Virus record (IMG/VR): IMGVR_UViG_3300020470_005538
Location: 1 to 25,702 of that record
Length of the DNA stretch: 25,702 bases
Direction: 5' to 3' (one strand)
DNA from: a virus
Shown here: positions 1 to 23,800 of the stretch, in pieces
Numbering within the stretch: position 1 is the stretch's first letter
Layout of the letters: each line of letters opens with the position of its first letter
Made by a program: the position numbers and the translations under genes
Notes under the pieces: model-generated
The model's database searches: none
The model's input: only the letters and a program-made list of their open reading frames with translations
What the model was told of the DNA's origin: nothing

Positions 1-1124
1 ATCTTTAATTTTCTAGTAGAAGTACCAAATCTAATTTCTCCATCAGGAACTGTTAAGTTACCAGAGGAGTCCATTGCCAATTTGTGAGTAGTACCAAATT
101 GAATTTCGGTATCCTGATCAAGAATTAAATTATTACTACCATCAAACTCTATAATCTTCTTAGAATTAGAATCTCCAAAACGTAGTTTTGATCCAGTAAG
201 TTCTAAGACACCATTATCATCAAAGAATAATTTGTTACCACTACCAAAGTCTAAATCCTGACCACCAATATCAACTTTACCAGACTCATCTTCACTTAGA
301 ATTCTATTGACTGATCTGATTTTAACTGGATTAGTAACACTAAGTTCTTGAGATTGGTCAGCACCAGTAGCAGCTACTTGAATGTAACCACGTGCTGCAC
401 CATTCTCAGCAGTAAATGATGTAAACGTAGCGTCTGCTTTAGCACCAGTAGAGTCTACAATTTCCAGACTGGTACCAGCCTTCATAACACTGAAACGTAA
501 TCTAAACTTCTCTTCTTGTGTAGAATCTTCTGAAGATAATTTAGAAGCAATGGTACGAGTAGCACCAGTGTCGATACTATTAACTGTATGTGATTCTTCC
601 TTCTTTCGCTTAAATGATCCTCCATCCTCAGATATAGCAGTATCACCAATCCAAAGTGAAGCACTGGTTAGATAAAGATCTCTGAAACGTAATGTAGAAG
701 AACCCAAGTCATAAGCATTATCAGTATTAGGAAGTAAGTTTGTAGAAATAACAACCTCATCACTACCATTGTTGGTAAGATTTGTTATTGCAGATCCACC
801 ACCTCCACCACCTTGTAGATCGTCGCCTGGCTGCCAGCGAGCATTTGCAGTATTCCACTTAAGAACCTGTCCGTTAGTAACCCCGCTAACGTCCACGTCA
901 GTAAGATTTGATGCTGCTAATTGTCCCTCCGTAAACGTACTACCATTCCATTTAAGGACTTGGTTCGTTGAGGGTGAATTAATTGTTATCTGAAGGTTCG
1001 TTTGATCTCCGAGATAGTCATACAACTCATTAATAACGTTATTGAGTTTAATGGCACCGTCTCGTAAGGTATCTCCAGTTCCATCATTGGCACTCACACC
1101 AATGTTAAGTGTCTGCTTAGCCAT
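1..1124 (-). CDS. Fibre-like virion structural protein, N-terminal part (runs off left edge)
   Basis: A stop-free frame starts with ATG at 1124-1122 and leaves the window at base 1, giving 374 residues and no stop. The N-terminus (MAKQTLNIGVSANDGTGDT, then an amphipathic stretch to about residue 40) is of a type I recognise at the start of fibre and baseplate-associated proteins of marine T4-like phages. Two VLKWN motifs follow (residues 56-60 and 87-91), then a hexaglycine linker (105-110), a fibre repeat of the form NAYDLGSSTLRFRDLYL (136-152), a Lys/Glu-rich patch near 172-178, and beta-repeats rich in RFG and LDxD motifs to the edge. This suggests an elongated trimeric fibre; the receptor-binding end would lie outside the window. 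It begins 27 bases after the previous gene. No clear Shine-Dalgarno is seen (AACCCCACTACT precedes ATG). A T4-like late promoter lies just upstream. The assignment as a virion fibre is inferred from motifs; which fibre it is cannot be said. Confidence 0.85.
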   Translation of the reverse strand, partial: MAKQTLNIGVSANDGTGDTLRDGAIKLNNVINELYDYLGDQTNLQITINSPSTNQVLKWNGSTFTEGQLAASNLTDVDVSGVTNGQVLKWNTANARWQPGDDLQGGGGGGSAITNLTNNGSDEVVISTNLLPNTDNAYDLGSSTLRFRDLYLTSASLWIGDTAISEDGGSFKRKKEESHTVNSIDTGATRTIASKLSSEDSTQEEKFRLRFSVMKAGTSLEIVDSTGAKADATFTSFTAENGAARGYIQVAATGADQSQELSVTNPVKIRSVNRILSEDESGKVDIGGQDLDFGSGNKLFFDDNGVLELTGSKLRFGDSNSKKIIEFDGSNNLILDQDTEIQFGTTHKLAMDSSGNLTVPDGEIRFGTSTRKLK

Positions 1125-1148: not shown

Positions 1149-1156
1149 TATTTATG
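1149..1156 (-). promoter_or_regulatory. T4-like late promoter (CATAAATA)
   Basis: On the minus strand the octamer CATAAATA spans 1156 to 1149 and matches the NATAAATA consensus of T4-type late promoters, which gp55-like sigma factors recognise without a -35 box. With usual spacing, transcription would start near 1142, leaving a leader of about 18 bases before the ATG at 1124. The motif overlaps the TAA stop (1154-1152) of the upstream gene. The match and spacing are seen directly; activity is inferred. Confidence 0.6.
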
Positions 1157-2885
1157 TAAGGTCAAATTCATAATTAGTTAAATCAAAACGCACATCATTT
1201 CTAGTAAAATCTGGATTCGTGTTATCCCTATCAAGTGGGATCGAAGTCATATCAAATTTACCTATATTGCTATCCCACTTCAAAACACCTGAAGTATCTT
1301 CACCACTAGTACCACCAGTGACAGTTAGGATAACAAGGTTGGACGCAAGCGGAGAATTGGATGCTTGCTGAGGTGCACCAATAGGACCAGTAACGATACA
1401 TCTAAATCGATATCCAGTCATATATGCTTGTGCTACAACTGAATATGTGGTCGCATTTGCACCAGTAATATTTGTCCAAGCAAAGCCACCATCAGTAGAA
1501 ACTTGCCACTGATAGTTCTTTGGACCATCTTCAGGTTCAATTACAGCAATCAAACTAAAGGATTGAGTACCACCATTAGCAATCGTCGCATTAGTCGGCT
1601 GATTGGTAATGATTATACTTGGAGCAGCAGGTGGATCTCCACCACCTCCAGGATCTCCACCACCTGTCTCTTCTCCAATACCTTGATTTGCTGGTATATT
1701 TAAAGTCTCTTTAGAAGATAAACCAAAGATATAAGGAAACTTAGGAGTTAAAAACCGATTAGGTACTACTTCAATGGTACTAGAACCACCCATTCCAGCG
1801 TGAGCAGCACAGTAATAGTAAAGAGTTGCTGGTGCATCTCCTAAAGGAGTGATCTCTACATACGCTCCAGCATCACCAGGTGTACCAACAACAGTAACAC
1901 CATCAGTATATTCCGAACCACCACCGTGTAATCCATCTGAAGCAGTAGAAAACCTTAGTGGATGAGTTGCATTAGTCGCTTCTGATTGATCAAACTTATA
2001 TGTACTTCCCTTAATAAATTTTAAATTAGGAGTTTCTACACCATCAATGTAGAACTTACCATCAGATGTAGTAACAGTATATGTTTTACTCTCAGTTTCA
2101 TCACCCCAAAGGGTTAAAAAGTAAGCAAAAGTACCGTTTGGATACTCAGGAGTATAACAATAGCGACCATTATAAACATCTAAATGCCTCCCAGGTTTGT
2201 CAACGTTGTACTCATAGTCCTCCATTAGTGAACCACGTGGAGGATTTGCTGTTGTATTACCATATGCAGGTCTATTTACAGCAATAGTCTCTTTCATTTG
2301 ATACCCTGTCTCCATCAATACTACAGCAGAATTATTATTCTGAGGAGAATCATATCCATAAGGACCATATACAGGATAACCATCAAATGCAATACCTAAA
2401 ATCTTAGAGTGTCCGTCAGGGTGACGCATATTGTCACCAACATACTGACTTAGACCATAGTAATCATTGTAACCAGCCATTACCTGGTTATTCTTCCAAC
2501 AACTTAAGAAGTCACCATCGTGATAGTGATACTGATTATTCTCATTAGGATGACCACCACAACTATCTTCACCAAAATCAACCATACCAAAATCAGCAGT
2601 CGCTACCCAATGAAATCCTACTGGTGGATTTCCACCATCTCCAGCGGAGGGATTAAAGAGTGCGACACCGTTTGCAGATATACCGACTATACCTAGAGGG
2701 AAACTTCCTCCAGCTTGTGTATTATCACCGCCTCTATATGTAAAAGCGTGGCTAAAATTATACGCAGTTGCTGTATTGGGGTTGTTATCATTAGGAAAAG
2801 TACCTTTAGAAACTGGGGTGGGCATCCCATCCCCAGTAACCGTTAGTATATCAGTGCCTGGATTGTACGAACCGTTAGCTGCCAT
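1152..2885 (-). CDS. YHYH-domain virion protein with inserted cupredoxin-like domain and C-terminal Ig-like domain
   Basis: This is a complete 577-residue protein; ATG at 2885-2883, TAA at 1154-1152. Domains in order: a short beta N-terminus beginning with a TYDPxTG-like half-motif (SYNPGTDILTVT); a YHYH domain (about 41-262) with the diagnostic YHYH at 119-122 and FDGYPVYGPYGY at 167-178; a cupredoxin-like insertion (about 267-375) with candidate type-1 copper ligands H308, C359, H362 and M365; the closing KFPYIFG strand of the YHYH fold (382-388); a Gly/Pro-rich linker (about 400-422); an Ig-like domain (about 423-524) with YQW at 458-460; and a tail with VLKWDS (534-539) and two FDLT motifs. 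The start lies 8 bases after the giant gene stops, with AGGA only 2 bases from ATG, so translational coupling is likely. No signal peptide is seen. YHYH domains have no firmly known function; a role in the phage particle is inferred from context. Confidence 0.9.
   Translation of the reverse strand: MAANGSYNPGTDILTVTGDGMPTPVSKGTFPNDNNPNTATAYNFSHAFTYRGGDNTQAGGSFPLGIVGISANGVALFNPSAGDGGNPPVGFHWVATADFGMVDFGEDSCGGHPNENNQYHYHDGDFLSCWKNNQVMAGYNDYYGLSQYVGDNMRHPDGHSKILGIAFDGYPVYGPYGYDSPQNNNSAVVLMETGYQMKETIAVNRPAYGNTTANPPRGSLMEDYEYNVDKPGRHLDVYNGRYCYTPEYPNGTFAYFLTLWGDETESKTYTVTTSDGKFYIDGVETPNLKFIKGSTYKFDQSEATNATHPLRFSTASDGLHGGGSEYTDGVTVVGTPGDAGAYVEITPLGDAPATLYYYCAAHAGMGGSSTIEVVPNRFLTPKFPYIFGLSSKETLNIPANQGIGEETGGGDPGGGGDPPAAPSIIITNQPTNATIANGGTQSFSLIAVIEPEDGPKNYQWQVSTDGGFAWTNITGANATTYSVVAQAYMTGYRFRCIVTGPIGAPQQASNSPLASNLVILTVTGGTSGEDTSGVLKWDSNIGKFDMTSIPLDRDNTNPDFTRNDVRFDLTNYEFDLT
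1314..1619 (-). other. Ig-like domain (C-terminal part of the 577-residue protein)
   Basis: Residues about 423-524 show the pattern ITNQPTNATIANGGTQSFSL, then NYQWQVSTDG with the core Trp, then TYSV and FRC before a closing VILTV strand. This matches bacterial and phage Ig-like folds common on virion surfaces. It resembles the Ig-like end of the giant protein (YQWQKKD, TWTNIQGA), suggesting shared ancestry. Confidence 0.75.
1620..1691 (-). other. Gly/Pro-rich interdomain linker
   Basis: Residues about 399-422 are almost only Gly, Asp, Pro, Glu and Ala (GGGDPGGGGDPP). They join the YHYH/cupredoxin unit to the Ig-like domain and probably act as a flexible spacer. Confidence 0.7.
1761..2087 (-). 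other. Cupredoxin-like domain with complete type-1 copper ligand set
   Basis: Residues about 267-375 read as a small beta-sandwich: LKFIKGSTYKFDQ, then ATHPLRFS carrying His308, a Gly-rich loop, and YYYCAAHAGMGG carrying Cys359, His362 and Met365. The C-x2-H-x2-M loop has the same spacing as amicyanin (C-x2-H-x2-M), with the first His upstream as in plastocyanin-type proteins. Copper binding is inferred from ligands and order only. Similar HP...YYYC..H.GMGG segments are familiar to me from marine phage proteins. Confidence 0.7.
2100..2765 (-). other. YHYH domain, main part (in the 577-residue protein)
   Basis: This covers residues about 41-262. The YHYH tetrad is encoded at 2531-2520. It is followed by a Cys (C129), the conserved segment GIAFDGYPVYGPYGY, and then DVYNGRYCYTPEYPNGTFAYF near the end. 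The last strand (FPYIFG) is separated from the rest by the cupredoxin-like insertion. The giant protein carries matching segments at its window-edge end, so the fold occurs in both neighbours. Confidence 0.85.
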
Positions 2886-2890
2886 AGTCC

Positions 2891-2897
2891 TATTTAG
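2891..2897 (-). promoter_or_regulatory. Possible late-promoter-like motif CTAAATA overlapping the giant gene stop
   Basis: CTAAATA runs from 2897 to 2891 on the minus strand, overlapping the TAA stop (2896-2894) of the giant gene and followed by GGACT and the next ATG. It differs from NATAAATA, and its expected start site would fall at or after the ATG, giving a leaderless message. It could be chance or a weak site; AGGA at 2891-2888 is more likely used as a ribosome-binding site. Confidence 0.25.
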
Positions 2898-5800
2898 TTG
2901 TCATCGAAGATTTGATCAGCAGTGAAGTTGTCTACAGTAGAAGCACCGATGTTAATTGTAAGTATTGCAGACTGTGAAAGTGTTGGAGTAGCACCCGTAG
3001 ATGTGAGACCAACTCTAAACTCATCTCCACCATCACCCTGAGTAGTAGCAGGTACTGTGTACGTAGGAGCTGTAGCACCTTGGATGTTAGTCCAAGTGGT
3101 TGTGCCATAATCCTTCTTCTGCCACTGATAATTAATAACTCCACCAGCAGGTGTTGTGGATGCGATCACAGTGAAGTTAGCGGTCTGACCCTGGTTAACG
3201 GTTGTATTAACAGGTTGTGACTCGATAGTGATGTAAGACTCACCGACTGGATCTGTTTCGCCAGGAGGTACGTACTCAGGGTGGTAAATGTCAATACCGC
3301 CATTGACTCCTTCACCCGTAGGTCCAAGGAATGTGTCTGCGACAGTAGTATTAACTGCGACAGATGGCATTGTATAACCCTGACCAGCGTTCTTAACATC
3401 AATACGTGCGAGACCAACTAGTGCCTTGATCTTGCCACCGAAACCAGAGGAGGAAATCACATCAACGTTTGGACGTGAAGTGAAACCATCACCAGAGTTG
3501 GTGAGGATTGCTTCAGTGATACGACCTCTTTCTATGTTTGCAAGTGCTTGTGCGTTACGTCCACGTACCGATCCAGTGTATTCGAAGGTAATTAGTGAGT
3601 TAGAAGACTCAATTAGAGCAACAGTTCTTGGGAACTCTTCACCTTCAATCTCTAGTAAGTCACCAGCTTCGATTGGTGGTACGACTGTTGCTGCGATAAC
3701 GTCAACGTCAGAACCAACATAAGAGAAGGCAACAAAGGTTGAACCTGCACGAGGTACTTCAGAGAATATAATACGTGAACCAACTAGTTCAAAACCGATA
3801 CCTGGTTCCTGAATAACACCATTTAACTGACAAATTATATTATTTTCAGGTCTAATTGTATTAGACTGAACACCTTCAGTCAGTGTCAAGGAGTAGAAGA
3901 CTCCACCTAACTTCAAGTTAAAGGAGTTACGTAATGAGTCAAAGTCGAATGAGATATCATCTAACTGTCTTAGTTTACCAATGTAAACACCGTGGAATGT
4001 TGAGTTAACAGCAGGTGCTTCAGTGAACTGGATGTTATCTGAGAATGCAGTGAAAGCATTGTTACCGCCAGGAGGTTGTAGAATACCATTCACGAAGATC
4101 ATCATATGACCTGCGGGATCTGGGAAGTATGGAGTACCGTTTAATTGTGTAAGTTTAAAGTCTTTAGTTACACCATCAAACCCTCTGAAGTATCTTCTTA
4201 CGCGACCACGTAGATACTTGGCAACAGAACAAGCACCTCTAAATCCATTGTCACCAATGATTTGTGCGTTCTTAACAAAATCTCCAGAAGTATCACCTAG
4301 GTGGATAATTGCACGTAAACCAACCTGTTCAACTTTCTCAATCTTACCGTAAGCAGTTGTTGGGGTAATTACAACAGCAACGATTGCAGATGTGTATACA
4401 CTTGGGAAGTTAGATCCAGCAGGAATCTTAGCGAGTTGATAAGCAACATCACCAGCGATTACAGTTAAATCATCACCAATACCTACGTATCTACCTGTCT
4501 CATTTGCAAGGTATACGTTCTTGTTTGGAATATCGTGTTCAGTAACAACGAATGTATGACCAACTGACTGACCTGCGTTCTGAAGTTGTAGAACATCACC
4601 AACATTGAACGTATCATCAACACCAAAGTCAGTAATTAGATCTGCATAGTTGAACATTGTAATTTCAGTTGAGTGTACGTACTCACCGAAACCAGGGAGG
4701 ACATTAAATCCTTCAATCTCAATAATTTGATCAGTAACAGAACCGTAAATAACATCACCAGCAGCATATTGTCCGACAACGGATTCGATGTCAAATGTTA
4801 CACGACCTGACTGATTATCAAGTAGAGCACCATCATTATTACGTACAATTAATGCCTCTGCTTTACTTGTAGCATTCTTAGCGTAGATATAATCAGTAGC
4901 AATAAACTCACCCATTCTGAAGTTAACTAACAAGCGTCTATGAGTGCTAGATCCAACAGTTGCCGTGGCACCAGATGTAGTGCCTTCGATAGGATCTGTA
5001 GCAGCAATAGTACCTGCTGTTACAATCAGTTTCATATATGTCTCATTGTCTGTTGCTAAACATATACCCTTATTACCTGTAGCACCTGTCTTAACAACTT
5101 CCTCACCAAGTTCAAATACTTCAGGATCACTAGTAACTGTTATTGGTAGATAAGTTACTGCATAAAGTATATCTGCGTGATTGTCTTGAACCCTAATTAC
5201 TTCACCATATGCTCCAGATGTATCACCGAAGAATATGTCAGCAGGTTGGATACCACCAGAAATAGGAGTAGGAACAATACGCTCACCATATGTTGATGCA
5301 ACACGTACAATACCAGTCTCATCTACAACAGATAAACTATGAAGTTGTCCAACAGTTCCTGGTGACAATGATGTGATCTTATCTCCATCAATTTCTTCTG
5401 CCAACCACAATAAAGTATCAGTAGAATCTGGATGGATATAGTATTCTGTCTTATCTAATTCTGGAATTGCAGTACCTAGAACAACATAAGTAACACGATC
5501 ATAAGCAATAAATGGATGTCCTAGAGGAGCATCTATAGAACCATCAGTATTAACATCAACACCAACATCAACCTGATGCTTAATGAATGTTGTAGGTAGA
5601 ACTGAACGGTTAAGTGCAACGTCAATTAAATGATAAAGTTGTCTAATCTTATGTACAGCACTTGCTGTAGGACGTAATTCAATATTCTTATAAGGTACCT
5701 CTAAGTTATAAGGTCCAGGATTATCACAATCTTGTTCGATTGTATCGATAATCATCTCTAAAGCAGCATCTGCGTGGAAGATTAGATAAGTTCTAAAGAT

Positions 5801-8800
5801 TCCAGGATATGCAACGAAGTTACCTTCAGAGTCAAACCAACTATTAACTAATTCAAGAGTCTTGATATTTCCATCAGTAACTAAGTCATACAAGAATGCC
5901 TTACGGATAGCATCACCAAATTCTTCTTCACCTGTATATCCTGCATATGCTTGTAATGTTTTATAGTAAGATTCACGTTTGATGTAAGTATCATTGAACC
6001 ACAACAACCTTGCTGCTTGACGATACATTCCAGGTGCACGACCTAATGTATCTTCTAAGAGGTCAGACAACGTTGCCATAGCAGACGTTACGTTGTAACA
6101 AATACCACCACCAGAATTTAGAGTGTTATTTGTAAGTGGAGCATTTCTTGAAATACCTTGGTTAGTAAAGTAGTTACCACTTCCAGAAGCAGCGTCTGCA
6201 ATCACACCCATAGGATATGAGAACAATGTCATAATTGTAGATGCTTCAGTTGCACAAGCACCACTACCTGCCTGATCATAAGTGATTGTTATATCACGTT
6301 CAGCAGCACGCTCACCTGTTAATGGCCATTCACCTGGTAGGGTTCTGGTTATATTATTGAGATAAGAAGTTGGGTTACTTGCACCTGAACCGAATAGATT
6401 GATAGGAATACCCATCAAAGTTGTAATAGCAGATGCTTCAGTTGTACAACGTGTAGCACCACCACCTGTGAATGAGGTGACAGCGTTGTTGGCAGAAGTA
6501 ATAAACGTATGATTATAAGCACCACCAGTGTGTACTGCTGCCCTTCTAATACCGTGAGCAGTTGCACTTACAAATGTGTGAGTTGTGGTGTTAGTAGAAG
6601 GTTGAGTTGCTAGAACTTGAACATCAAATGTACTAGCAGTTGCATTTGAAATTGTCAAAATTCTACGACTTGAATAGTCACTAGCTCTTGGATATGAGTG
6701 CTCAGTTGCATTGCTATCTTGAGCACAAGTGAATACTAATGAATTATCATCAATAATAACTCCATCGCCATCAGACCATCCGTGTTCAGGAACTGTTAAT
6801 GTCATTACACCCGTTGTTGGGTTATAGGAAGCATTAGTTACAGTGGTCTTCGCTTGACCTTCCCAAGCGTGTGTGTAAAGTCCACCACCACGTACTGCCA
6901 TTCCCCTAGAACTGACATACTTGTGCTCATAAGCACCACCAGCAACAATCTTAGGCTTACTAATTGAGTTAGAAGCGGCAGAAACAAATGTATGAACTGT
7001 TTGATTACTTGTAGGAATATCTTCCAATACCTGAATACTAAACTGATCTAAAGTTACGTTATAGATCTTCAGTAACTTACCGCTAGCTGGGTCAGTTGCT
7101 CTTGGATAAGCGTGGTTAGAACCATTACCATCCTGTGCACAAGTGAATGTTACTGCACTATCAGCAAGTTTAATGTACTCTCCTTCGTGGAACTGGTGAC
7201 CAACTATGATCGCACCAGAAGTAGCAGTGTTAAATGTATGTGCTGTAGAGTTACTAATAGGACCAGCACCACCATTTACGTTAACAGTAATTGTAGAATT
7301 GGTTGTACCAGTAATTCTAATTTCCTTATCAAGGATATAATCCTTACCATCAGGAGTATTAGCACCAGATGAACGAGGATATGCCTTAACAGCACTATTA
7401 CCATCTTGTGCACAAGTAAAGGAAATACCACCTTCCTTAATCTTAATCTTATCACCAACCTTTAACTTATGGTTAGCACCAATAGTTAACTCCATATCAC
7501 CTGTAGAAGTGTTATAAGTTGCTCCAGTTGGTGTATATGCAAGGTTACCAAGAACCGTCAGACGCATTTCACCAGTCTTAGGATCATATGTAGCACCTGT
7601 TGGTGTCCAAGTATCTGTGGTGTTAACGTAGTTGTGAGTTGTAGTGTTAGAAGATATACCAACATTAAACTGAATAGTTCCATCTGGATGATCAATGCCA
7701 CTTGTAGTTGCTGATACGAATGTATGAACAGTCTTATCAAGGTTGGCCTTACTTACACAAACATCAAACTCATCAGTAGTTACATTTCCTATTGGTAGAT
7801 ACTCATCATAAGATGGATCAGTTACTCTTGGATAAGAGTGAGTTGTGGTATTATCATCTCTAGCACAAGTAAATGTGATAGAATTCTCCTTCATCTTGAT
7901 CCTATCATTTGCTTTCTCAACACCATTAGAAACAGCAGAAACGAATGTATGAGTAAAGTCAACTGAGATAGCACCTTTACCGAAGAAGTAACCTGTATTT
8001 ACGTGGAAATGATTTGTACTTACGTTATGAACTACTAACCACTGGTTAGAAACTGGGTCTGTAGAACGTGGATAAGTATGGTTTGTAGCATTATTATCCT
8101 TGGAACAGGTGAATGTTAATGAGTTATCATCAATCTTAATACGATCACCATTTCTAAATCCGTGACCAGCAATAGTTAATCTTAGATCACTGGTATCTGG
8201 ATCATACTTAGCAGCAGTAACTGTATGTCTAGTAGAGGCATTAAACCCGTGACTTGGTACAGTCAATCTCATTACACCAGTAGTAGGATCATACTGAGCA
8301 TAGGTTGCTGTCTTATGTTGCCAACCAACCTGATCTATGTTGATTCCACGCTGATAGAATGGGTCTCTCTTATGAACAAATCCACCAGTCTTAGACTTAA
8401 TGAAGTTGTGAGTATATAAACCACCACCTCTAATAGTTGCACGTGTGCAGCAATTAGCAGCAGCACTTACAAATGTGTGAGCAGAGATATTAGTAGAAGG
8501 TACAACATCTAAAATCTTAACGTTGAATGTGTCATTAGTTACGCTAGAAATTACACTCCACTTATCCCAGAATGGGTCTGTCTTACGTGGGTATGTGTGA
8601 TTAGTAGCGTGACTGTCTCTATCACAAGTAAATGTGAGAGACTCCTCAGCAAACTTAACCATATCACCTTCTTCAAATCCGTGACCAACAATAGTCACAG
8701 TCATAATTCCTGTAGTAGGAATGTAAGTGATAGCAGTAGGTGTCTTACCTACTTGTGGCTGGAATACGTGAGTAGTTGTGTTAGTGGAAGGAATATCCTT

Positions 8801-11800
8801 CAATACATTCAATGATATTGAAGTTGCATCAGCATCAACAACAGCAACAGCAGTATCGTGATTAGGATCACGCTTAACGTGAATACCACTTGCTGTAGCA
8901 GACTGGAATACGTGAGTAGTAGTATTTGTTGATGGGATATTATCAAGAACTCTAACCCTAAACTGGTTAGAACTCAAAACATTAACTGGAACCCATCTTC
9001 CTGACATTGGGTCAGTAGATCTTGGATAAGAGTGATCTGATGCCTGAGCATCTTGATCACAACGGAATACTAATGAATCATCAACAAACTTAATACGATC
9101 ACCATCTACTAATCCGTGAGATGTAGTTGTCTGAATTGTCATATAACCTGTAGTAGGATTATATGTTGTACCAGCACCAGCAGTTAACTGATCGTAAGTT
9201 TCACGTGGATAGTAATGTGTAGATGCTTGACCATCTTGATCACACTTGAATCCTAATGAACCAGTAGCAAGTCTTATGCTATCACCATAAAGTGTGATTC
9301 CATTTGTAGTTGCAGACTGGAATGTATGTGCAGTTTCGTTAGTAGAAGGAGTAACTTCTAGTACCTTAACGTGAATATTAGTGTTTGTAGCATCAAGAAT
9401 TTCTATCCATTGACCACTAACAGGATCACTTTCTCTTGGATATGCGTGGTCTGATGAATTACCATCTTGAGCACAACGGAATGTTAATGAGTTGTCAGCA
9501 AACATAATTCTGTCACCAGCACCCATTCCGTGCTTACCAATAACCTGAATGGAATCAGCAGTCGCTGAAACAAACTTATGAACAGTTGTATCAGTAACAG
9601 CACCTTGTCCACCGTTAACATTAACAGTTATTGTATTTGTGCTTGTTTCATATATTGGGAGATCTGTTTGATATGCATAGTCAGCACCACTAGTTGTCGA
9701 AGCACCTGAAGCACGAGGATATGCTGTATTTGTTGCATAGTTGTTGTTATTATAATCACAAGCCATTGTGATACCACCAGTAGCAATTCTGATGATGTCT
9801 CCTTTCTCTAAATCGTGAGGACCAATGTCAATTACAAAGTCACCGCCAACTGGATCATAATCAACACCAGTAGGTGTATAGGTCTTACCAGCAATGGTAA
9901 TATCCATAATACCTGTGGAAGGATTATAATCTACTCCAGATGCAGTAAACTTCTTCTGTGGTGTAAACTTATGCTCACCAATGGTTAGCTTCATTACACC
10001 TGTTGAAGGATTGTAATCAACAGCAGAGGGATCAAACCCAGTAGTAGGTGTTGTGCCGACATTAACCTGGAAGGTATTTGCAGCAACATTCTCAATTACA
10101 ATCCACTTCTTACTAACAGGATCTGTAGGACGTGGATATGAATGATATGTGGAATGATGATCCATTGAACAAGTGAATGTCAAAGCACCATCTTCAAACA
10201 TAATGAAGTCACCATTAGAGTAACCGTGGTTATTGAGTGTTAAGGTGATATATCCTGTTGCTGGATCATAAGTTGCTCCAGTTGGAGTAGCAGGATGTGT
10301 ATCTCCTCTAGGATATGAATGATTAGTTGCATTACTGTCTAATCCACAAGTAAAGACTAGTGAGTTAGGAGCGATTCTAATATTTTCGTGTCTGCTTAGG
10401 TAATGGTTACCAACAGTTGCATCTATAGTACCTGTGATTGGATTGAATACAGCAGCACTAATATCAAGGTCTACAGTAGGTGTTTGACCAACGTTAACTG
10501 TGATCCAACCATTCTGCTTCTTAAGTCCACCAGGAGTAAACCCAGTAAAGATATGAGCGAAATTACCAGCAGAAGATACACCAACATTAACCTTAAAGGT
10601 ATTGTTGGTGGTTGCAGTAATAGGCATCCAATGACCTGCTTCTGGATCATCCTTCCTAGGATATGTGTGAGTAGAACCGTGACTATCCTTAGCACAAGTC
10701 ATTGAAATTGAATTCAAGTCAAACTTAACTAAATCAGGTGCAACGTGAACACTGTCAGGAACAGATGCTTGGAATCTATGAATACTTTGATCAGTAATAG
10801 CACCACCCAAAGCAGATGTACCAACATTAACTGTAAATCTGTTTTGTGTAGCGTGCTTAACTATTAACCACTGATCGTGAGCAGGGTCTGTTGTTCTTGG
10901 ATATGGGTGATTAGAACTGTACTGGTCTTTAGAACATCTAAATGTAACTGCACCAGTTTCAAATTTAATACTCTCACCATTAGCAATACCGTGATTAACG
11001 CTGTATACTTCCATATCACCTGTACTTGGATCAAATGAAGCCCAAGTAGGAGATACAGTACGTGGTCCTTTAAATCCGTGACCATTAAGAGTACACTCAA
11101 GTTCACCAGTTATAGGAGTATAATCTGCATCAGTAATAGTATAAGCATCGTGTCCTGCTTCTTTCATCTGTAAAGCAGTGTTTCTAGCAGGGTCAGTTAG
11201 ACGTGGATAAACGTGCTCTGAAGCGTGACTATCCATATCACAGGTGAATGTTAATGCTTCATCTGCAATCTTAATACCTGTACCTTCTAATAAGTGATGA
11301 GCACCAACTTTAAGCTGTAGATCACCAGTTTCACCATCATACTTAGCATCACCAACACTATAGAATACAGCCTCGGTCTTACCAACATTAACTGTGATAG
11401 AACCAGATTCTAATTCAAGACCATCAGGAGTAGCTTCTATGAACTTGTGAACATAATTACCACCTGTTGTTACTGCATTAGGAGCAGCAGAAACAAAAGT
11501 ATGAGAAGTTGCATTAGTAGATGGTAATACAGGTAGAACCTGAACAGTAACAGAGGTTGCTGTAGTACCTGTTACTTCAAGTGAATTACCGTATACTGGG
11601 TCAGTAGACTTACTAATACAGTTGTATACAGCAGACTTAAAGAGGTGAGTATAGTTACCACCTGTTGTTATAGCAGCAGGTTCAGCACTCTTAAAGATAT
11701 GAGCTGTTGTATTAGAAGAAATACCAACATTAATTGTTATTGTGTCATCCTTCTTGACAATTCCATTAGTTGTACCAGATACAAATGTATGGTTAGTAGT

Positions 11801-14800
11801 ATTCGTAGAAGGAGTATTACCATCAAGAATCTGACAGCTGAAAGTAGATCCAGAGGCATTAAACACCTTCAACCACTTGTCGCTGGCTGGATCTGATGCT
11901 CTTGGATATGCGTGGTTAGTAGCACCACCATCTTGAGCACAATTAAATGTTACTGCACCATCTCTAAACTTAACATAATCACCATTTATCATTCCGTGAG
12001 CAGAAGATGTGGTAACTGTCAATACACCTGTTGTTGGGTTGTAAGTAGTACCAGATGCAGCAGTCATTGGAGTACCTTCGTACTTAATTTCGACTGATGA
12101 ATCGTATGCTTGGTCTTTCTTAGAAGTTAATGAACCAGAAACAGCAGAAACATAAGTGTGTGAGTAAACACCACCACCTCTTACAACTGCTCTAGCGATA
12201 CTGTTTGAAACAGCACTTACGAAGTTGTGAGTTGTAGTGTTAGTGGAAGGTACATTATCAAGAACTTGAACATCAAATGTACTACCAGTTACATTAGAAA
12301 CAGGGATAAACTTATGTGAAACAGGGTCAGTTGCACGAGGATATGAGTGATTAGTTGCATAACTGTCCTCATTACATTGGAAAGTAAATGCATTATTATC
12401 AATCATTACGTGCTCACCGTTCATTAAACCGTGATTAGCAACTGTAATTGTCATAACACCTGTTGTTGGGTTATATGCTGCCAACGTTGGAGTCATCTTA
12501 GTTGGAGCAACCCAAGTATGTGGAGTTACGTTAGTTGAAGGAACTGTTTGTAGAACCTGAACTGTGATTGTAGTATCAGTAGTAGCAGTGATTGGGCAAG
12601 CAGTATCATAGAATGGGTCATTCTGTGTAGCACCACCTTGACCTGATGCACGAGGATATGTGTGCTCAGTAGCGTAGTTATCTTGTCCACACTTGAATGT
12701 TAATGAATTATTAGCAATTCTTACGGAATCTCTACCAGCAGTAAAGTTATGCTGACCAATAGTCATAACCATTAAACCTGTTGCAGGATCATAGGTTACA
12801 AGTGAAGGATCATAAGCAACTGTAGGTGTCTTACCTACGTTACAAGTAAATGTTGTAGCACCAGTTACATCAATCTCTAACCACTTACCAGATACAGGGT
12901 CAGTTGCTCTTGGATAAGGATGGTTAGAAGCATTACCGTCCATAGAACAGGTAAAGGTAATAGCACCATCATTAAACTTAACTTTGTCACCATCCTGAAG
13001 ACCGTGACTAGCTTGTGTTGTAATTGTTAAAACACCAGTCTCAGCGTTATAAGCACCATTACTAATGTCTGATACTGTATAAGTTGTAGGACGTGGATAT
13101 GGGTGATCAGTAGCGTGACTATCTTGAGCACAAGTGAATACTAATCCACCCTCAGATATCTTAAGGTGTGTACCAGCAGTAAGACTGTGATCACCAATGG
13201 TTAGAACCATATCACCAGTAGAAGGGGTGTAAACCGCATCTGTTGGTGTGAAACTTACAGTAGGAGATTCTCCAACCTTAAATGTAAATGTATTTGTAGA
13301 AACTGCTTCAATTCTCATCCAAGAATCAGCTGCAGGATCATCTTGTCTAGGATAAGAGTGCTCAGAAGCGTGTCCATCCATAGAACAAGTCATCACCAAA
13401 CCATCTTTGGCAACCTGAACCATTTCACCAACCTTAAATCCGTGGTTAGCAACAGTAACAGTTAAATGACCATTAACAGGATTGTAAGAAGCATCTGTTG
13501 GAGTTACTTGAGTTACAGTAGATCTTGGATAGGTATGGAATGTAGCATCATCATCTTCCTTACAAGTAAATGTCAAGGAATTAGGTGCTATCTTAAGATG
13601 TGTACCAGTAACTAATCCGTGTACACCAAGAATAAGTTCCATACTTCCCGTTGTTGGGTCGTAGTTAGCTTGAGAAGGTGTATAGTATTTCAGAGGACTC
13701 TTACCAATAGACATATCAAATGTATTTCTAGTTACATTAGAAATTGGTAAGTAACGTCCACTAGCAGGATCAGAAAGTCTTGGATATGTCTTCTTGCTGT
13801 AATGCTCATCCATTGAGCAGGTGAAGGTCATAGAATCGTTCAAAATCTTGATCCTGTCACCATTTCGGAATCCGTGATTAGGAACAGTAACTGTTAGAAC
13901 ACCAGTTGTTGCAGTGAAATCAGCGAATGTAGCAGTATGGTACGTAGATCCAATAGCTTCAATATCAATTGCTTTGTCAACTACTGGGTCAGAAGAACGT
14001 GGATACTTATGAATAGTCTTGTAATTATCCTGAGCACAACGGAATAGTAATTCGTTCTCAAGAATCTTAAGTGTTTGACCAACTCTTAGACTATGTGATC
14101 CAACATCTATAGTTAATAAACCTGTCTCTGGATCGTAAGTAGAATACTTGGCATCAAAATTAACTCTTTCAGTGATTCCAACATTAACTGTTATATCAAG
14201 ACCACTTACATTAGTAACTGGTAGTAATGAATAAGCAGCAGGATCACTAGGACGTGGATAAGTATGCTGAGTCTGATGATCATCTTGATCACAAGTAAAG
14301 ACTAATGAATTTGTATTAATTCTAAGAGTGTCAGCAGTTGTTAATCCGTGACCAGTCTGTAACGTAAGTACCAAGTCACCTGTTGCAGGGTTATATGTTG
14401 CAGCTTGTGGGGTATGAGTAGCACTTCCAGAAGATTGATCAATAGTAATTGTTTCATCATATACTGGATCACCTTCGGTATAACCGTTAGTGGTAATCAA
14501 TTGCTGTCTCATTACTTGAATTGCAAGATCACGTGCTTGCTCAAAGACATACTTAACTTCAGTTGCCTGAGAATTGATATGCTGAATAGCGTTAGCATCA
14601 GTAATATAGAACTCAGTTGCATACCATAGTTTGTTGTTACCACCGTGCTTAAGGTTGAATACAGTTGCTTCTAATACATCAACAACGTCATCAACACAAC
14701 TCTGATAACCATATCCACCAAATCCTAACGATGGGTATTGAGTAATAGCACGACCAACAGCAGTAGTAGCGATAAACCTTATATTATTATGAATTTCATT

Positions 14801-17800
14801 TCCAGCATCATAGTATTTGTTACCAACAGAACCAAGACCACGAGCATTATCGTAATAAGGATCACGCTGCTCATTAGTCATCGTGTCAGGATAGGGATTA
14901 AACCCAAGCTTGTTCTGGATGGCGAGGACCGTCATATCTCTAGCCATCTGCATAGCAAACTTAGTTTCAGCAGGTTGATCAGTAACGTGCTTCAATCCAT
15001 TCTCACTATTCAGATATAATAATGATGCATCATATACAGCAGAGTTAGAACTAAATCTAAGGTCGTGGCATATTGCTTCTAATACATCAACAATGTCATC
15101 TTCACAATGTACCTTTCCACCTTTAACACTGAAGTTATAATGCTTGAATGCAGAGCACTTAACCATAAGGTCAACTGCTTCCTCAGCAATAACTCTCTTA
15201 TTTCTGTCTATCATATCAGCAGCATCTAATGCACGCTGAGAACCTGCATAGATCTGAGTGTCAAATAAGAAGGTAGGTTCAGTTGTTACATCCTTACGAT
15301 ATGCAGCAATATCCGTATACTCGAACTGGAAGAAATCATCAATAGTGTTAGCATTTGTTCCAGTAAGATTAGCAAGGTTTTCGTTACGTGATACAAGAGC
15401 ATTTTGTAATGCTTTCTCCATCAAGAACTTAGAGTAACCAATAGCATCAAGCATTGGAAGGATCTGTTGATCCACTTCAATAATCTTACCAGTAGAATCT
15501 ATGTAATTATCAATAATTGACTGTACATTAGCATTACCACCAGTTAATAAGTCACCAGCAATAGCAGGAATAATATGATCTCTAATATCTCTCTTACATT
15601 TCTCAGTACCAGGTGAACCACCAGGAATAGTTAACTTATCTACTTGTACAAAGTTGATCATAACTTCGTACTGTGCCTCTAACCACTGTACAACCTCATC
15701 AGCAATACATTTACGGTTAAAGTATAGTAAATCAGCACCATCTCTAAATCTGTTGCCTGTAGGTCCAAGAACTAATAGTATACTATCTACAAGATCGCTA
15801 ATGAAACCAGTAATAGTTGAACCAGCAGGTGATGAGAAGTAATTAGGAATACGAACACGTTGTGTATATTCTCCACTTAAATCATCTTGATTAAGAGTAA
15901 TAATCTCGTTGCAAAGCTTACCAACTTCTCTCCAAGCATAAATGGACTGAAGTAATTCATCATTAACGTGTGCTAATTGACCTTGCTGGTTAGCAAGATA
16001 TCCTCTTGCAGCAACAATACTGTTATAATTACCACCATATCTAAGGTCAGCAACAATAGCAGGAATGATATACTCGTAAGTATCCCTCAAGCATAATTGA
16101 GTACCTTGATCTGAAGTACCAGTATCACCAGGTATCACAAAGTCAGGATACTGTGCCTTCATTCTTCCAACTGCTTCTTCAGCAATGAAGAATTTATTCT
16201 TATCGATTATATCTGCACACTCTCTAAAGTCATCACGAGCAATATCAACACACTCGGTCATAATTTCACTACGCCATAACTCTACACCATCAGCAGTACA
16301 GGTAGAAGTTATAGTATCACTATAAGTTGCATAAATTTCACCTTTAATAATAGGAATAGGTGCTTCACCATCAAATCCAAATTTAAGGTTTATATCAGTA
16401 GCATCATATGTTGAACTAGGTGTAAAGCTTGTACTGTACTCAGAAACACCTAACTTAATCATCAAGTTCTCTATATTTCCAGTAAATGCTTGTGCATTAG
16501 AAGCATTAGCACCAATCTTAACTGGCATATTGCCATAGTTGGTTGCATCATTATAATCAACACCTTCCTTAGTACCACCAACAAATAATCTAGTTAAACC
16601 AGAGTTACGTGTTATAGCGATATGAGTCCAAACATTTGCCTGTAAACTAGCAGAAGAAGTGATCCTATCTGTGTTAGCAGTATTCCAACGAACTGTATTA
16701 TTAACAAGAATCAGATATCCTTCAGTTGTAGATGCAGTAGCAGTCCTGAAATCAAGCAACATCTGTGTAGTATTAACAGCAGTTGGTTTAATCCATAGTT
16801 CAATAGTAAAGTCACCAGCAGCACCAGCACCATCACCGAAAGCAACTTTTGAAGTTGATGGGTGTGTTAAATATGCAGTACCATCAAATTCAAGGGATCC
16901 AGTACCAACAGCATAATCTAAGTTGTCTACAGTTACATTAGTATTAACTAGAAGACTATTAGTGATATATTCTCCAGCACTAAAGGTTCCTGTTGGGTTC
17001 TTAGTATAGATCCACTTATTACCAGCATTAGATCCGATAATTTCAGCAGAAGCACCAGAAGTTATACCTTTAACTGTATCACCAAAAACGAAGAATCCAC
17101 CAGAAGACTTATCCTTATATGCCATCTTGATAGACTTAAGTGTCTCAGAATCTTGGAAAGAATAAGGTGGCTCAACTCTTGTTATATTACTTGTTGCCCA
17201 AGGATATGTACCAGGAGTAGCACCAGTAGGATCCTGTAAAGTATCTGTGATTATTGCAAAGAAGTTAGTAATCGCAGAAGTTATATTGACACAGGAGTTA
17301 GTAGCAGGAATAGTATTCAGTGCTGTGCTAGGTATTGTACTTGTATATGCTGCTTCAAATGCTGCTAAAGTTCCAGGAGAAGCAGTAGTACCTAGGGCAT
17401 TAATCACAATATCCATCAGGGTGGTTATTGTTGAAGCAACTGTCTGACAAGCAGGTGATGCACTGTCAGCAGTAATGCCACTATCAGTAACTTGTGTCCA
17501 ACCGTGTGAATTATCTTGCTTGGCGACTGCAATATTTCTCATAATATCGATTGCCATAGTCTTCACTTTGGTATAAGCGTCAACCATAGTATCAATATCA
17601 CCAGTTACAGTACCATATTGTATAGTTCTATGGGTTGCTTCATAAATGTGATCGTTACCACCGTGAGCAGCGTTATATGATAATGCTTCGACAAAATCAA
17701 CAATGTCAGATAAGCAATGAACATCTCCACCAGATACTGTATATCCTGGATTCTGTTGCTTGGCATAATATAATGCTTCGTGAGCAATGTACCACTTGTT

Positions 17801-20800
17801 AGCAAGTAGTAAAGTTCTAGCATCAGCGTGACTGTTATCAGTAGGCTGATAGTCAGCAGTAATTGTTAAATCACGCCATTGTTGGAGAGTTGTATGAGTA
17901 GTATCAATACTTTCCATTCTGATGCACTTAAGAGCAAGATCTCTTGCCTTATTCATTGCATATACTACTTGTGGAACTTCACCATCAACGTGATATACAG
18001 TAGATCCTTGAACGTAAGTATTGGCAATATCATAGACTTCAGAGTTACCATCGTGCTCTAACTGCCAAGCCATCATATAAAGTGCATCAACGATATCATC
18101 GTGACAATCTTTATCGTGATTTAGACCAGGAACTACGAAAGAGGGGTAGAAATCGTGCATTAATCCCACGGCTTCTTCAGCTATGAACAATGCATTCTTT
18201 TGCAGTGTTTCAGCAGCATCACCACGTCTATTATCGTGCTGTCTTCTTAACGAAGAGTTACCGAAGTATAGTTTCTTAAGTCTAAGTTCATCACCAGCAA
18301 CAAAGTCAGTACCAGTTAGATTCTTATAACGAATCTCTTGATTACGTACATTCTCAAAGTCTAGGAAGTCTTGGTTGTTTGCAGTAGTAGTATAAAGTTC
18401 AGTTGGGTTAATAACTGTCTCACCAATGTTATCGAGGATAACGTTAGGGAAGGTAATTGAAGGAACTCTCTGGAATACTAGTGCAAAGAAGGAAGAACTA
18501 GGTGATAGGTCTACCTGATCAATAATCTGATTAGATATATCATCCTGATAAGGTGCAATACTAGTAATTAAAGAACATATCTTAGAACGTGCAGAATATA
18601 TGATATCGTTAAACTTAAGATTAAATTCTCCAGTTTCAAACTCAGCAGTACCAGATGTACGTGAAACAACTAACTCATTAGTGATAACACCATCTTCTAA
18701 GTTATTTTCTTCAATTATAGCGAATCTACCTTGTAAATTAGTAATTCTTTCACCTTGCTCGTAGATAGTCTTAGAAGTAAGTCCATTTACAGCAGAAAGT
18801 ATAGAAGCAAATCCAGTAGCACTAGAATTGACTTCTTCATTGATTTGGAAGGTTCCTACTATGTTAATGACATCAATATAGTCAACACCAGAATCAATAA
18901 CAGTTGCAGTTGCTTCAGAGATCAAACCACGAACAGTATTACCCAAAAGTGGGAAAATACCACCAATGGTACTGAATGTCATCCTAGTAATTAACTGTTG
19001 TTGATATACAATCTCACGGAACTTAATCCTAGAAGGTGCTTTAGGTGCTTCAGTAAAGACTACAGAAGGTCCAGAAGTAGAGAAGGCAGTACCTGGTGCC
19101 TGTGCAACACCATTCAGCAAGATAAACATCTGATTATCTGTTGCTGTTATGGATTCACCTTCAACATTTAGAGGGAACTGGGTTTTAATCCCATCAAAGT
19201 CATCAGAGACGTTATCAATCTTCTTAACAATAGAAGTCAGAATTTCCTCTGAGTTAGTCAGTCTCTTCTGTCTAAACAGTACCTCAGTGTTATTGAACTG
19301 AGTATAAATGGGTTGTGCGTTAGCAAAAGAGGTAATTTGATTAATATTAGTGAATGCATTAATATTAACCTCTTTAATAAGGTCAGATATAACTTTTCTT
19401 CCTGAAATATCCTTACCACCAGTAATTGCTAGTTCACCAAACAGGTTGAAACCAACAGGGTGATTTGTTTCTAATACAGGCTTTCTCCAAGTATTAATGG
19501 GTGTTTCAGACTTAATAACGTAAGAGAAGTTCTGATAGAAGTAAGAGTCTTGTATTTTCTGTACAATTTCAGATGGTTTACCAACGTCATCGATAAACTG
19601 ACCAGGAGTATTGGTTAGAGAAGCGATATTCAGAGTACCACGAGCGATTGATAGGTTATCAATCAAACCAGAAGCACGAGAAACTTCACCAGTTACACGC
19701 TCTCCAGCTCTCCAAACACCATCATAGTTCTCAAGTTTAAGGATTCTAGGTCCAATCTGCCAACCTTCGTTAGTAGAAACATAACCAGTAGCAGATGCTA
19801 GTGCTAATGAAGTACCTTGATAAACAAGTTCACCAGCAAGGAATCTTGAAGTTTCAACGATAGCAGTTGCTTTACCACCAAATACCTCGGTGAGTAGTAC
19901 CTGTCTACCTTCACCTTGAGTCAAGAATGTGATATAAGAACCAGATTCAGCATCTAACTTAGTTAAAGAGATACGTAACTGGTCAGATTCAAGTGAATTC
20001 TCATTACCAGCAATAGCATAGTAGACCTGATTCTCAACCAAGCTAGTTAAACCAGCAGAACTTGGTTTTGGTAGAATACCAACGGTAGATCCTAGATCTT
20101 CTGCTCTTAATGTAACTTCAGCACCAGTTGTGATACCGTGTGGGAAGTTAAACTGTAAATAACCTAAGTCAACGTTAACAACGTAGTTAAATTCCGATTT
20201 AAGGGTAACTGTTGGTTCAGAACTGTATCCTGCACCTGGATCCTTAATAATAATCTCAGAAAGACGATTGTTCTTAACTATTGCCTCTGCTGATGCACCA
20301 GATCCACCTCCACCAGTAATTACAACAGCGGGAGTTGAAGTATATCCAGAACCTGGGTCAGTTATCTTGATCTCTGCGAGTAAAGCGGTATTAAACAGCT
20401 GAAGGTTCACAGGGAAAGTTATTTCAGGTCTCAGTGTATAATCGTGTGAGTAACCGAAACCAAACTCATTATTCTTAAGTTTCTTGATCTTACCAATAGA
20501 TTTACCTTGTAAGAACACAGAAGCACCTGATCCTTCATCAGGAATAACAACTTCAAGAACTCCACCAGAACCAGCAAGTAAAGAACCAAGAATACCTGGA
20601 ATTGCATCAATATCGATAGATGCAGTCTTATATCCTTTACCAGCAGAAGTTAGAGTAACATCAGTGATAACTCCAGTGAAATCTCCATCATCAGTAACTG
20701 TAATGTTACAAAGAGCACCTTCACCATCTCCATCAATAGGAACATTATAGTAAACACCATTTACGTACTCAGTACCACCATTAAGGATACGAACCTTCTC

Positions 20801-23800
20801 AATTTCTCTGTTAGAAGCAATATCAGTAACAATTGGTAGTTTCTGATAGAATCCACCTGGGTTTACCAGCTTGATATCAGATATTGGACCGATTGCCTTG
20901 ACAGAGGTTGTTGAGTAAGAAGAACGAGGCTGATCAAATTCGTTGTTACCAACAGGAGCAGTAGTTTTTTCTGGTTCATCTAACATCTGGAAATCAAATG
21001 TCTTACCAGCGTTACTAACACCAGATACTCTAAATGTACCATCATAAGGTGATTTAATAACGTCGATGAATGATCCTTCACCTACAGGAGAGTCTGCACC
21101 TGTCCTTGAAGGGTCAAAGTAGTATGAAATATTAGTAACATCCTCATTAATGACGAATTTAACCAACGGAGTTGGTGAATCATCATCAGTGAAACCTGGT
21201 GTACCCTCTCTAATGATGTTAATAAACGGATATTCCAGTTTATACTGGTTATCCCTAGAGAATGATAGGTAATATCCAAGGTTAGAAGGATCATCAAGGT
21301 CAAATATGTACTGATGACCTCTAACAAAGAGGAATTTAGGATGTTTTGCGTAAATATTGACATTCGTTACTGAAGATCCACTACCAGAGAAGGAAGGATC
21401 CTGTACAGCAGTAGATCTCATACGGAAGAGGAAGTCTCTTGAGTTAAAGATCTCTTCTACGAAGAATGAACCGTTATAATCATTGGTAGCAAAGTGTTCT
21501 GTAAATATTATCTCATTTACTACGAAATTGTGTCTACTAGAAGCAGAACAATATACCAAATCAGTATTTGTAAGTGCACCAGCAGGGATTACATCCTTAT
21601 TTAATTTTGCAACTAAGGATATCTTCTGTACACCAAGCAATCCAGTGAATGTGGCGATCTTACCAGTAGCATCAACAGAGAACTGTAAGTTAACTGCATC
21701 AGCATCAATGGTATCTCCTTTGATGAATGCGGAATCTTGATAGATTTCTTCAATCTTGATGGTGTAATCAGATGCTGAGAAAGGCTTCCAAGAAGCAAAA
21801 GTTCCTAATGTACTACCACCATAAGAGGTATCTGCAAGATCTACCTCATATATGCCAGATGCAGAGGTATATGCCCAAGTTACACCACCATCAGATACAA
21901 CACCAACCTCGTGAGTAGGTGCAATAGTACCAGATGTACCAGCAGCCGTTGCTGTATAGAGCTTCTTATCATTATAAACTACATCACCAATGGCATAAAC
22001 GAAGTTTGTAGCCCACTGAGCTTCAGCTTTGGTCTCTGTAAAGTTCCATTCTAGCTCGTTTACATCATTATGAGTAGATTTTAGTAGTTTTTGATTGTCA
22101 AAAGTACCAACAATCTTACCAATCTTGACAGAATTAGTTCCAACCTCAACAACTACACCATATGCAGAGATAACATCATTGCCACCAATGACTGAATACT
22201 GTTGTAAAGTAGTTCCTTTACTGAAAGTAGCAGCCTGGTTGAACGTAAGTGTCTTAACTAGGTCAATTTGAGAGTATTTTGCATCCCTGAAGTAGAATTT
22301 AGGGATAACAGTAGTTGTTAATAGTAGTTTCTTACCACCTGGAGTCGGGATAGTAGCAGTTCTATTAGCAAATATTTCATCAGTAGACGTAATAGTAAAG
22401 GTTCCAGGTACGTGAGTTGAAACAACATCACCATAATCAAGGATCTGAATACCAGCAGGACCTATAGACCAAGGATTTATCACTACCGCTTGGGTATTAA
22501 ACGTATAATTGCTCGCAGCGGCGACGTTTAGGGTATGTCCTGTCTCAACACTGTTAAGAGTAAATGATCCAAGTTGTGTCTTGTCCCTATCAACTTTATA
22601 AACAAACCCTTGCTTAACTGAATTTGTACCAGTTATAGCAACTTCAGAAGGAGTAAATGCTTCTACGTACTTAGCAACAGGTGAAACAACGAAATTATCA
22701 ATCCAACCGATCCAGTTGTTAATAGAACTAGGTGCACCTTGAGGTCCAAGAGTTGCATCCTTCAAATTAACATCAACAGTTGTACTGGTAAGAACTTGTG
22801 TCTCAATACCATTAACATATAAACGATACTTATAATCACCAACTCCAACACGTTCTTTAGCAAATGCAACGTGAATGAATGCTTCATTATTGAAAATAGC
22901 AAAATAAGCAGAAGCACTAGAGAATGTAGTTGATCCTGCTATGTCAATATATGTCTTACCGTAATTTGGTGATGACTGGTCAGCATCTAAACCACACTTA
23001 ACAATATTACCAACGTTGTCTTCTATTGAATACCATTCTGGTTTTGTATTAGCACCACTATACTGAGCAGTAGAAAGTGCCCAGAATCCTTCAAGACACC
23101 AACTAGTTGCTACGTCAGCACCATATTGTAGTGTAAGTTTGTTAGATGCGTCTAATTTAACCGCAGATGCTCCAGCAAACTTCTTAGTGTCATCAATTAC
23201 AGCATTACCAGTTGCGTGCCAAGCTTTGTTGGTAGCAGTCCTTAAAGTGTCATTATAAGTATCATCTAACAAGTTATCAGCAGTATCCCAGTTAAAGATT
23301 GCTAATTGATCAGATTCTAGTTTGTTACCAACAACAATAGTATCACCAGAATTGTCATTATCAACAGCAATAGGTCTAAATCCAATACCATTAGTTTCTG
23401 ATACGTTAGTAGCAGAAATAACGTTACCTGTATTCCAACCAATCTTAACAGTTACTGATTCTGCATTATTGAAATCTCTCTCAACAGCAGCAGATAAATC
23501 AACATTACCAAAAATGTCAAATTTAACACCACCATTCTTTACTCCGTGATATTCACCAGTAGGAACAAATATTTTGCTCTGAACAGGAATACTAAAGTCG
23601 TTGTTATCAAATTTAACGTATATAACACCATAATCCTTACCATTAGTGTCTTCTGCTGTAGCAGTTACATATACAGCACCATATTCATCGATAGAGAACG
23701 TGGGATCCTTAAACTTATAAGAAGCATTAGTAATCTTCTTAGCCCACTGAAGTTCAATAGTAGCAGTATCGTAATAAGTTTCACCAATAATGATGTCACA

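Follow-up and report, generated by a model that had tools for sequence, protein, structure and literature searches.

The window analysed here, the whole 25,702-nucleotide stretch of IMG/VR virus record IMGVR_UViG_3300020470_005538 (positions 1 to 25,702), is a 25.7 kb viral contig from a T4-like myovirus of marine cyanobacteria. It covers the part of the genome that encodes the baseplate and is occupied by three open reading frames (ORFs) on the minus strand. The largest of these encodes a giant virion protein with 25 copies of a module containing the motif C..D.....H.YPR. The module is predicted to be a small β-barrel of the type known from the first catalytic cysteine half-domain (FCCH) of ubiquitin E1 and from phage endosialidases, with an added hairpin that would hold the Cys, Asp, His and YPR residues. 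The giant occupies the slot of T4 gene 7 in cyanomyoviruses. The explanation favoured here, at slightly better than an even chance, is that the 25 barrels form an expandable appendage of this baseplate protein, which provides reach and multivalent, weak contacts with host glycans, and that the Cys and YPR-DP residues have a structural role.

2894..25702 (-): giant virion protein of at least 7,602 amino acids, 5' end beyond the window edge (PHROG 701)
6458..14446 (-): barrel array (PHROG 1276), consisting of 25 modules, linkers and partial elements

Since the PHROG 701 alignment of the giant begins at position 1414, roughly 1,400 amino acids are absent from the window, and the full-length protein would comprise about 9,000 amino acids. 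The homologue in phage P-RSM6 is encoded by a coding sequence of 25,722 nucleotides. All 25 YPR motifs of the giant are found between amino acids 3815 and 6337 of the ORF (window 14260..6694), and the PHROG 1276 profile gives 25 matches in the window, the best with an E-value of 3.3e-25. The hairpins are located as follows.

14252..14293 (-): module 1 hairpin, C..D.....H.YPR
13997..14038 (-): module 2 hairpin
13778..13819 (-): module 3 hairpin, Lys instead of His
13523..13564 (-): module 4 hairpin
13346..13387 (-): module 5 hairpin
13091..13132 (-): module 6 hairpin
12908..12949 (-): module 7 hairpin
12650..12691 (-): module 8 hairpin
12335..12376 (-): module 9 hairpin
11900..11941 (-): module 10 hairpin
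11201..11242 (-): module 11 hairpin
10895..10936 (-): module 12 hairpin
10655..10696 (-): module 13 hairpin
10307..10348 (-): module 14 hairpin
10130..10171 (-): module 15 hairpin
9713..9760 (-): module 16 hairpin, loop two residues longer, without Asp at C+3 and without His
9434..9475 (-): module 17 hairpin
9203..9244 (-): module 18 hairpin
9020..9061 (-): module 19 hairpin
8585..8626 (-): module 20 hairpin
8066..8107 (-): module 21 hairpin
7826..7867 (-): module 22 hairpin
7373..7414 (-): module 23 hairpin, Lys instead of His
7100..7141 (-): module 24 hairpin
6686..6727 (-): module 25 hairpin

An earlier note on this DNA had counted Cys in 25/25 modules, Asp at C+3 in 24/25, His in 22/25 and YPR in 25/25, and these counts are exact. 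The Cys precedes the Tyr by 11 residues in 24 modules and by 13 in one; the His stands two residues before the Tyr, and the three modules without it carry Lys, Lys and Thr. The full C..D.....H.YPR motif occurs 22 times, compared to none in 20,000 shuffles, and C-x10-YPR 24 times, compared to a shuffle mean of 0.001. The further statement that these are the only near-invariant positions does not hold, as the window also has F/M at C-2 (25/25), T/S at C+7 (23/24), the H of HG (21/25) and the G of GD (20/25). Neither is there strictly one Cys per module, since seven of the 25 module-plus-linker segments contain one or two extra Cys residues, nor are the copies in regular tandem: module spacing is irregular (59-233 amino acids), with partial elements in between.

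The barrel module was found in 267 phage records, all of them cyanophages or marine viruses, and also in many marine viral contigs. In weighted sets of these relatives (effective number of sequences 331, then 407), Cys is conserved at 99.8-100%, Pro at 100%, Tyr at 98-100% and Arg at 96-98% (YPR 96-100%). The Asp of DP (96-98%) equals C-YPR in conservation, and the G of TG (98%), the H of HG (95%) and the H of HTF (98%) are likewise near-invariant. Asp at C+3 is found in 91% and replaced by Gly, Asn or Ser in about 9%. The near-invariance of His is a property of the window, as in the relatives this position is H in 69-77% and K in 19-25%. A search with a second profile, in which the Cys-YPR columns had been masked, still found C...YPR in 543 of 560 full modules; most of the others belong to a shorter-loop variant in which the Asp is missing but C, H and YPR are present. 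In about 16 modules Asp and His are both absent while Cys and YPR are retained. Going by the alignments, Cys and YPR are thus the fixed part of the module and Asp and His are not, so that of the residues thought to be probably essential only the former two bear out this expectation. A thioester link between Cys and Gln was also considered and rejected, with Gln at C+2 in only 20-27%.

The fold of the module was predicted with AlphaFold2 from a two-module segment and a 46-row alignment. Module 25 is modelled as a confident small barrel according to the predicted local distance difference test (pLDDT), and the linker between the modules has low confidence.

6458..7255 (-): modelled segment with modules 24-25, module 25 barrel at pLDDT 90-96

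Structural comparison with VIA ranked the E1 FCCH (6dc6) first, with a modest Z of 7.9 and a root-mean-square deviation (rmsd) of 3.0 over 79 residues, followed by the phi92 endosialidase (4hiz; Z 7.6, rmsd 2.5 over 83) and the K1F/NF endosialidase barrel, residues 424-512 (3ju4, Z 7.2, rmsd 2.2 over 82; 1v0e, Z 6.9). The Pfam model of E1_FCCH (PF16190) matches window segment 9905-14800 at 4e-7 with 30.4 bits, above its cut-off of 29.5, and End_beta_barrel (PF12195) matches at 1.4e-6 with 28.6 bits, below its own cut-off of 35. The modules contain the strand-turn-strand signature HGL-x2-GD-x-V/I of the E1-FCCH/endosialidase barrel. Pfam matches to WSS_VP, Cthe_2159 and similar families, each in one member of 46, were regarded as spurious. 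A viral-library search with the fold ranked cyanophage proteins at the top.

The predicted module barrel superposes on the barrels of the K1F, NF and phi92 tailspikes (PF12195) with an rmsd of 2.2-2.5 over 81-83 residues, the HGL-x2-GD stretch is matched by the Pfam model, and both systems have a phage tail context. They differ in that the single endosialidase barrel sits in a catalytic trimer, whereas up to 25 barrels occur per chain here; the module additionally bears the Cys hairpin, and a catalytic domain was not found in the giant. E1 FCCH appears to have the same barrel, judging from the comparison with VIA and the Pfam match, but the module is without ubiquitin chemistry. The FCCH half-domain itself does not contain the catalytic Cys, and the module Cys is therefore unrelated to E1 catalysis. 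In related giants, a barrel-like stretch near the N-terminus has the same HGL-x2-GD start without the Cys hairpin, which suggests that the hairpin is a later addition to an older barrel.

All 25 modules match PHROG 1276, a family entry without fold or function. Searching PDB sequences with the profile of the module gave nothing credible (iota-carbonic anhydrase 0.025, BURRH 0.21), and no account of the module was found in the open-access literature searched. The earlier note's statement that the module has no characterised function stands for the family, while its predicted fold is recognisable as the E1-FCCH/endosialidase barrel. What this analysis adds to PHROG 1276 is the assignment to a barrel, the H/K exchange and the register of the hairpin.

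The register of the hairpin was derived from couplings between columns 31-44 and 33-42 and agrees with the strand ends assigned by DSSP; couplings at column 34, the Cys, were disregarded because they arise from a handful of outlier rows. In the model, Cys and YPR lie on the two paired strands of the hairpin added to the barrel, and the register would put L30, F32, C34 and T41, H43, Y45 on one face. The alternation of the Cys in phase with the core residues L30 and F32 suggests that it faces inward. At the tip of the hairpin it would pack on the core, with the conserved Thr/Ser opposite and His/Lys next to it, whereas the Arg and Asp of YPRxxDP would close the turn. Asp at C+3 and His/Lys may serve as secondary, tunable loop contacts. 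The most likely role of Cys and YPR-DP is thus structural.

Two other roles had been proposed for the conserved residues. Disulfides between chains or neighbouring arrays could staple several chains into one fibre once lysis has released them into oxygenated seawater, as suggested by the conservation of the Cys at 99.8-100% in the same place in every module. According to the register, however, the Cys is in phase with L30 and F32 and opposite Thr/Ser41, and hence probably not exposed. Furthermore, T4 gp7 is present as one chain per wedge, so that a parallel homo-oligomer is not expected, and this role is regarded as unlikely. Alternatively, Cys, Asp and His of one module, which by the register share one face and one end of the hairpin, could bind a metal ion. 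Among relatives, though, the three putative ligands are not conserved together: Lys takes the place of His in 19-25%, and the Asp is missing either by substitution, in about 9%, or through the shorter loop, while Cys and YPR stay. Because Asp and His vary in this way, such a metal site is disfavoured and appears highly improbable.

The position of the giant in the virion was approached via gene order. In phages S-TIM4, P-SSM7, S-RIM8 and P-SSM3 the order is gp25-gp6-giant-gp9, followed by gp8; the window shows the gp9 side only. The remaining two ORFs and a domain of the giant related to one of them are listed below.

1152..2885 (-): YHYH virion protein (PF14240, 1.8e-29; PHROG 25852)
3..1124 (-): gp9-like baseplate/tail-fibre connector, truncated at the window end, with the N-terminal domain of T4 gp9/10 (PF07880, 5.9e-10; PHROG 677)
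25349..25672 (-): YHYH domain of the giant, close to its visible N-terminal end (PF14240, 1.9e-27)

A YHYH-family structural gene directly follows the giant in S-SZBM1, P-RSM6 and the window. The YHYH domain, of unknown function, is present both in the giant (25349-25672) and in the adjoining ORF (1152-2885), and YHYH proteins are widespread across cyanophage records. Depositors named the giant gp7 in S-RIM8, and the P-SSM3 entry has 'similar to gp7'. As the N-terminus of the giant itself lies beyond the window, an N-terminal profile was built from related giants; against PDB, up to an E-value of 1, it matched T4-type gp7 only, and weakly (0.042 and 0.093, 28-29 residues). A match to Baseplate_wedge (PF23786, 1e-7) was also obtained in S-TIM4. 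On the basis of gene order in relatives, the giant occupies the T4 gene 7 slot of cyanomyoviruses, and its location in the particle would be the baseplate. It resembles T4 gp7 in the slot between gp6 and gp9/gp8 and perhaps in its N-terminal part, where the profile match is weak, but T4 gp7 has 1,032 amino acids and no such arrays, whereas the homologues here have about 6,400-9,000. It has been reported that gp7 is highly divergent among T4-like phages and that 41 virion proteins of S-SM1 were identified by mass spectrometry (Sullivan et al., PMC3037559).

The number of long-loop modules varies widely among the homologues examined, with 25 copies in the window, 16 in P-RSM6 (plus two short ones), 11 each in P-SSM3 and S-SSM7, 10 in P-SSM7, six in S-TIM4 and one in S-RIM8; none was detected in the S-SZBM1 giant. 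A few copies are also encoded in separate tail-fibre ORFs in MED4-213, Sf-CH1b and ACG-2014j. Owing to this range of 0-25 copies and to the presence of the module in tail-fibre ORFs, the array is not needed for the baseplate core. Between close relatives module order is conserved, and blocks of two to four modules are gained or lost; modules 10-15, 20-22 and 25 of the window correspond to modules 1-6, 8-10 and 12 of one close relative (L005).

These same features would also be expected if selection acted on the length and flexibility of the appendage and the barrels bound nothing. This explanation as pure spacers is the main rival and a real possibility, although clearly short of an even chance. 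It accounts for the copy number of 0 to 25 and for blocks of modules that come and go with order kept. However, orthologous modules in close relatives are mostly 60-80% identical, compared to 43-57% for paralogues, so that many positions keep their identity; this constraint exceeds what a plain spacer would need, and a glycan-binding barrel is among the closest relatives by fold. The barrel of K1F has a polysialic-acid site and is a hotspot of host discrimination (PMC12632334). The combination of a dispensable, expandable string with a predicted barrel fold of the K1F type is the ground for preferring the adhesive appendage: the barrel string would extend the reach of the baseplate and engage glycans on the host surface multivalently, through contacts that are each weak, glycan binding by the modules being suggested by analogy.

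Several points weigh against this explanation. Glycan binding draws solely on the analogy of fold, and the fold assignment has its own weaknesses: the Z-scores from VIA are modest, below 8, and such scores can reflect a common arrangement; Foldseek found no PDB match to the module barrel with an E-value of 0.001 or lower; and single modules seldom reach the Pfam cut-offs. The packing of the Cys side chain is inferred, and near-total invariance is unusual for a buried structural Cys, for which an occasional Ser, Ala or Val would be expected. Finally, PHROGs places the giant (PHROG 701) in the category 'head and packaging'. This category looks wrong (loci L082-L092), as gene order and the weak gp7 match indicate the baseplate.

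The same chain contains a second type of repeat. Just upstream of the barrel array (14492-18229), six helical repeats with C-x-x-D adjoin it, and a lectin-like domain lies between them.

17912..18229 (-): phycobiliprotein-like repeat 1 (CHDD)
17528..17827 (-): phycobiliprotein-like repeat 2 (CLSD)
16457..16855 (-): Laminin_G_3 (concanavalin-like lectin) domain (Pfam PF13385, 4.2e-18)
15896..16225 (-): phycobiliprotein-like repeat 3 (CLRD)
15392..15751 (-): phycobiliprotein-like repeat 4 (CKRD)
14894..15235 (-): phycobiliprotein-like repeat 5 (CEDD), the one modelled
14492..14815 (-): phycobiliprotein-like repeat 6 (CVDD)

The Laminin_G_3 domain is a second possible carbohydrate-binding element of the chain. 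A seventh, diverged phycobiliprotein-like repeat without the Cys was found after the barrel array (5729-6025, amino acids 6560-6658; E 0.0008), so that helical repeats flank the array on both sides.

The window segment with the helical repeats matches PF00502 at 1.5e-9, as do 21 of 68 family members. A search of PDB with the profile of the repeats retrieved both phycocyanin and phycoerythrin, starting at 3.7e-5 for phycoerythrin alpha, and in the alignment the Cys and Asp coincide with those of the bilin site. Repeat 5 was modelled by AlphaFold2 with a pLDDT of 89 and a predicted template modelling (pTM) score of 0.84. All 50 of the 50 Foldseek matches listed for this model are phycobiliproteins or the related fluorescent protein 8u0f, with template modelling (TM) scores up to 0.75, though with E-values of at least 0.04, among the matches listed; VIA gave a Z of 11.5 and an rmsd of 2.1 over 104 residues against a phycobiliprotein. 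In relatives of the repeats, Cys is found in 83%, Asp in 89% and Arg at C+2, as in the bilin-binding Cys-x-Arg-Asp, in 41%. In the collection searched, such relatives are present in 351 phage records, all from cyanophages except one marine virus. Sequence and predicted fold together identify the six repeats as phycobiliprotein homologues that keep the bilin-attachment Cys-x-x-Asp, and they look like borrowed light-harvesting domains. No description of phycobiliprotein-like domains in cyanophage virions was found among the open-access publications searched.

These repeats give rise to a further explanation, in which the giant is a virion chromoprotein whose six repeats derive from the host antenna and have bilins covalently bound to their conserved Cys; in that case the Cys that is invariant in the barrel modules could provide a second site of bilin attachment. 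Among 153 cyanophages, heme oxygenase (HO), PcyA, PebS and CpeT are found in myoviruses only, except for one podovirus PebS (review, PMC10452541). If true, the chromoprotein would explain this near-exclusive distribution, as the enzymes would serve to decorate the phage's own particle. Taken as a whole this explanation is considered very unlikely, and the link between the bilin genes and the helical repeats is put forward as a hypothesis. CpeT is encoded on one of six barrel-carrying contigs, all of which are fragmentary, and this count is hence uninformative. In ACG-2014j (L091), a CpeT-like bilin lyase gene (10119-10643) is located immediately upstream of a tail-fibre gene of 12 kb (10933-23106) that carries the barrel module, and another Synechococcus phage ACG-2014j record has phycobiliprotein-like repeats in a short-tail-fibre gene.

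The giant gp7-slot proteins rank among the largest of T4-like cyanophages, with no mechanism assigned. The pattern described in the earlier note is real, though it was misread in part. The module is predicted to be a barrel with a hairpin, and its fold class is known; what is unusual is the number of copies, in a protein that is little understood. With an endosialidase-type barrel recognised, a role in adhesion becomes a hypothesis open to test for what was just a 'virion structural protein', and copy numbers from 0 to 25 provide a natural series for it. The presence of phycobiliprotein-like domains in this chain raises a directly testable question about the purpose of cyanomyovirus bilin genes, and these repeats may outweigh the barrel array in importance.

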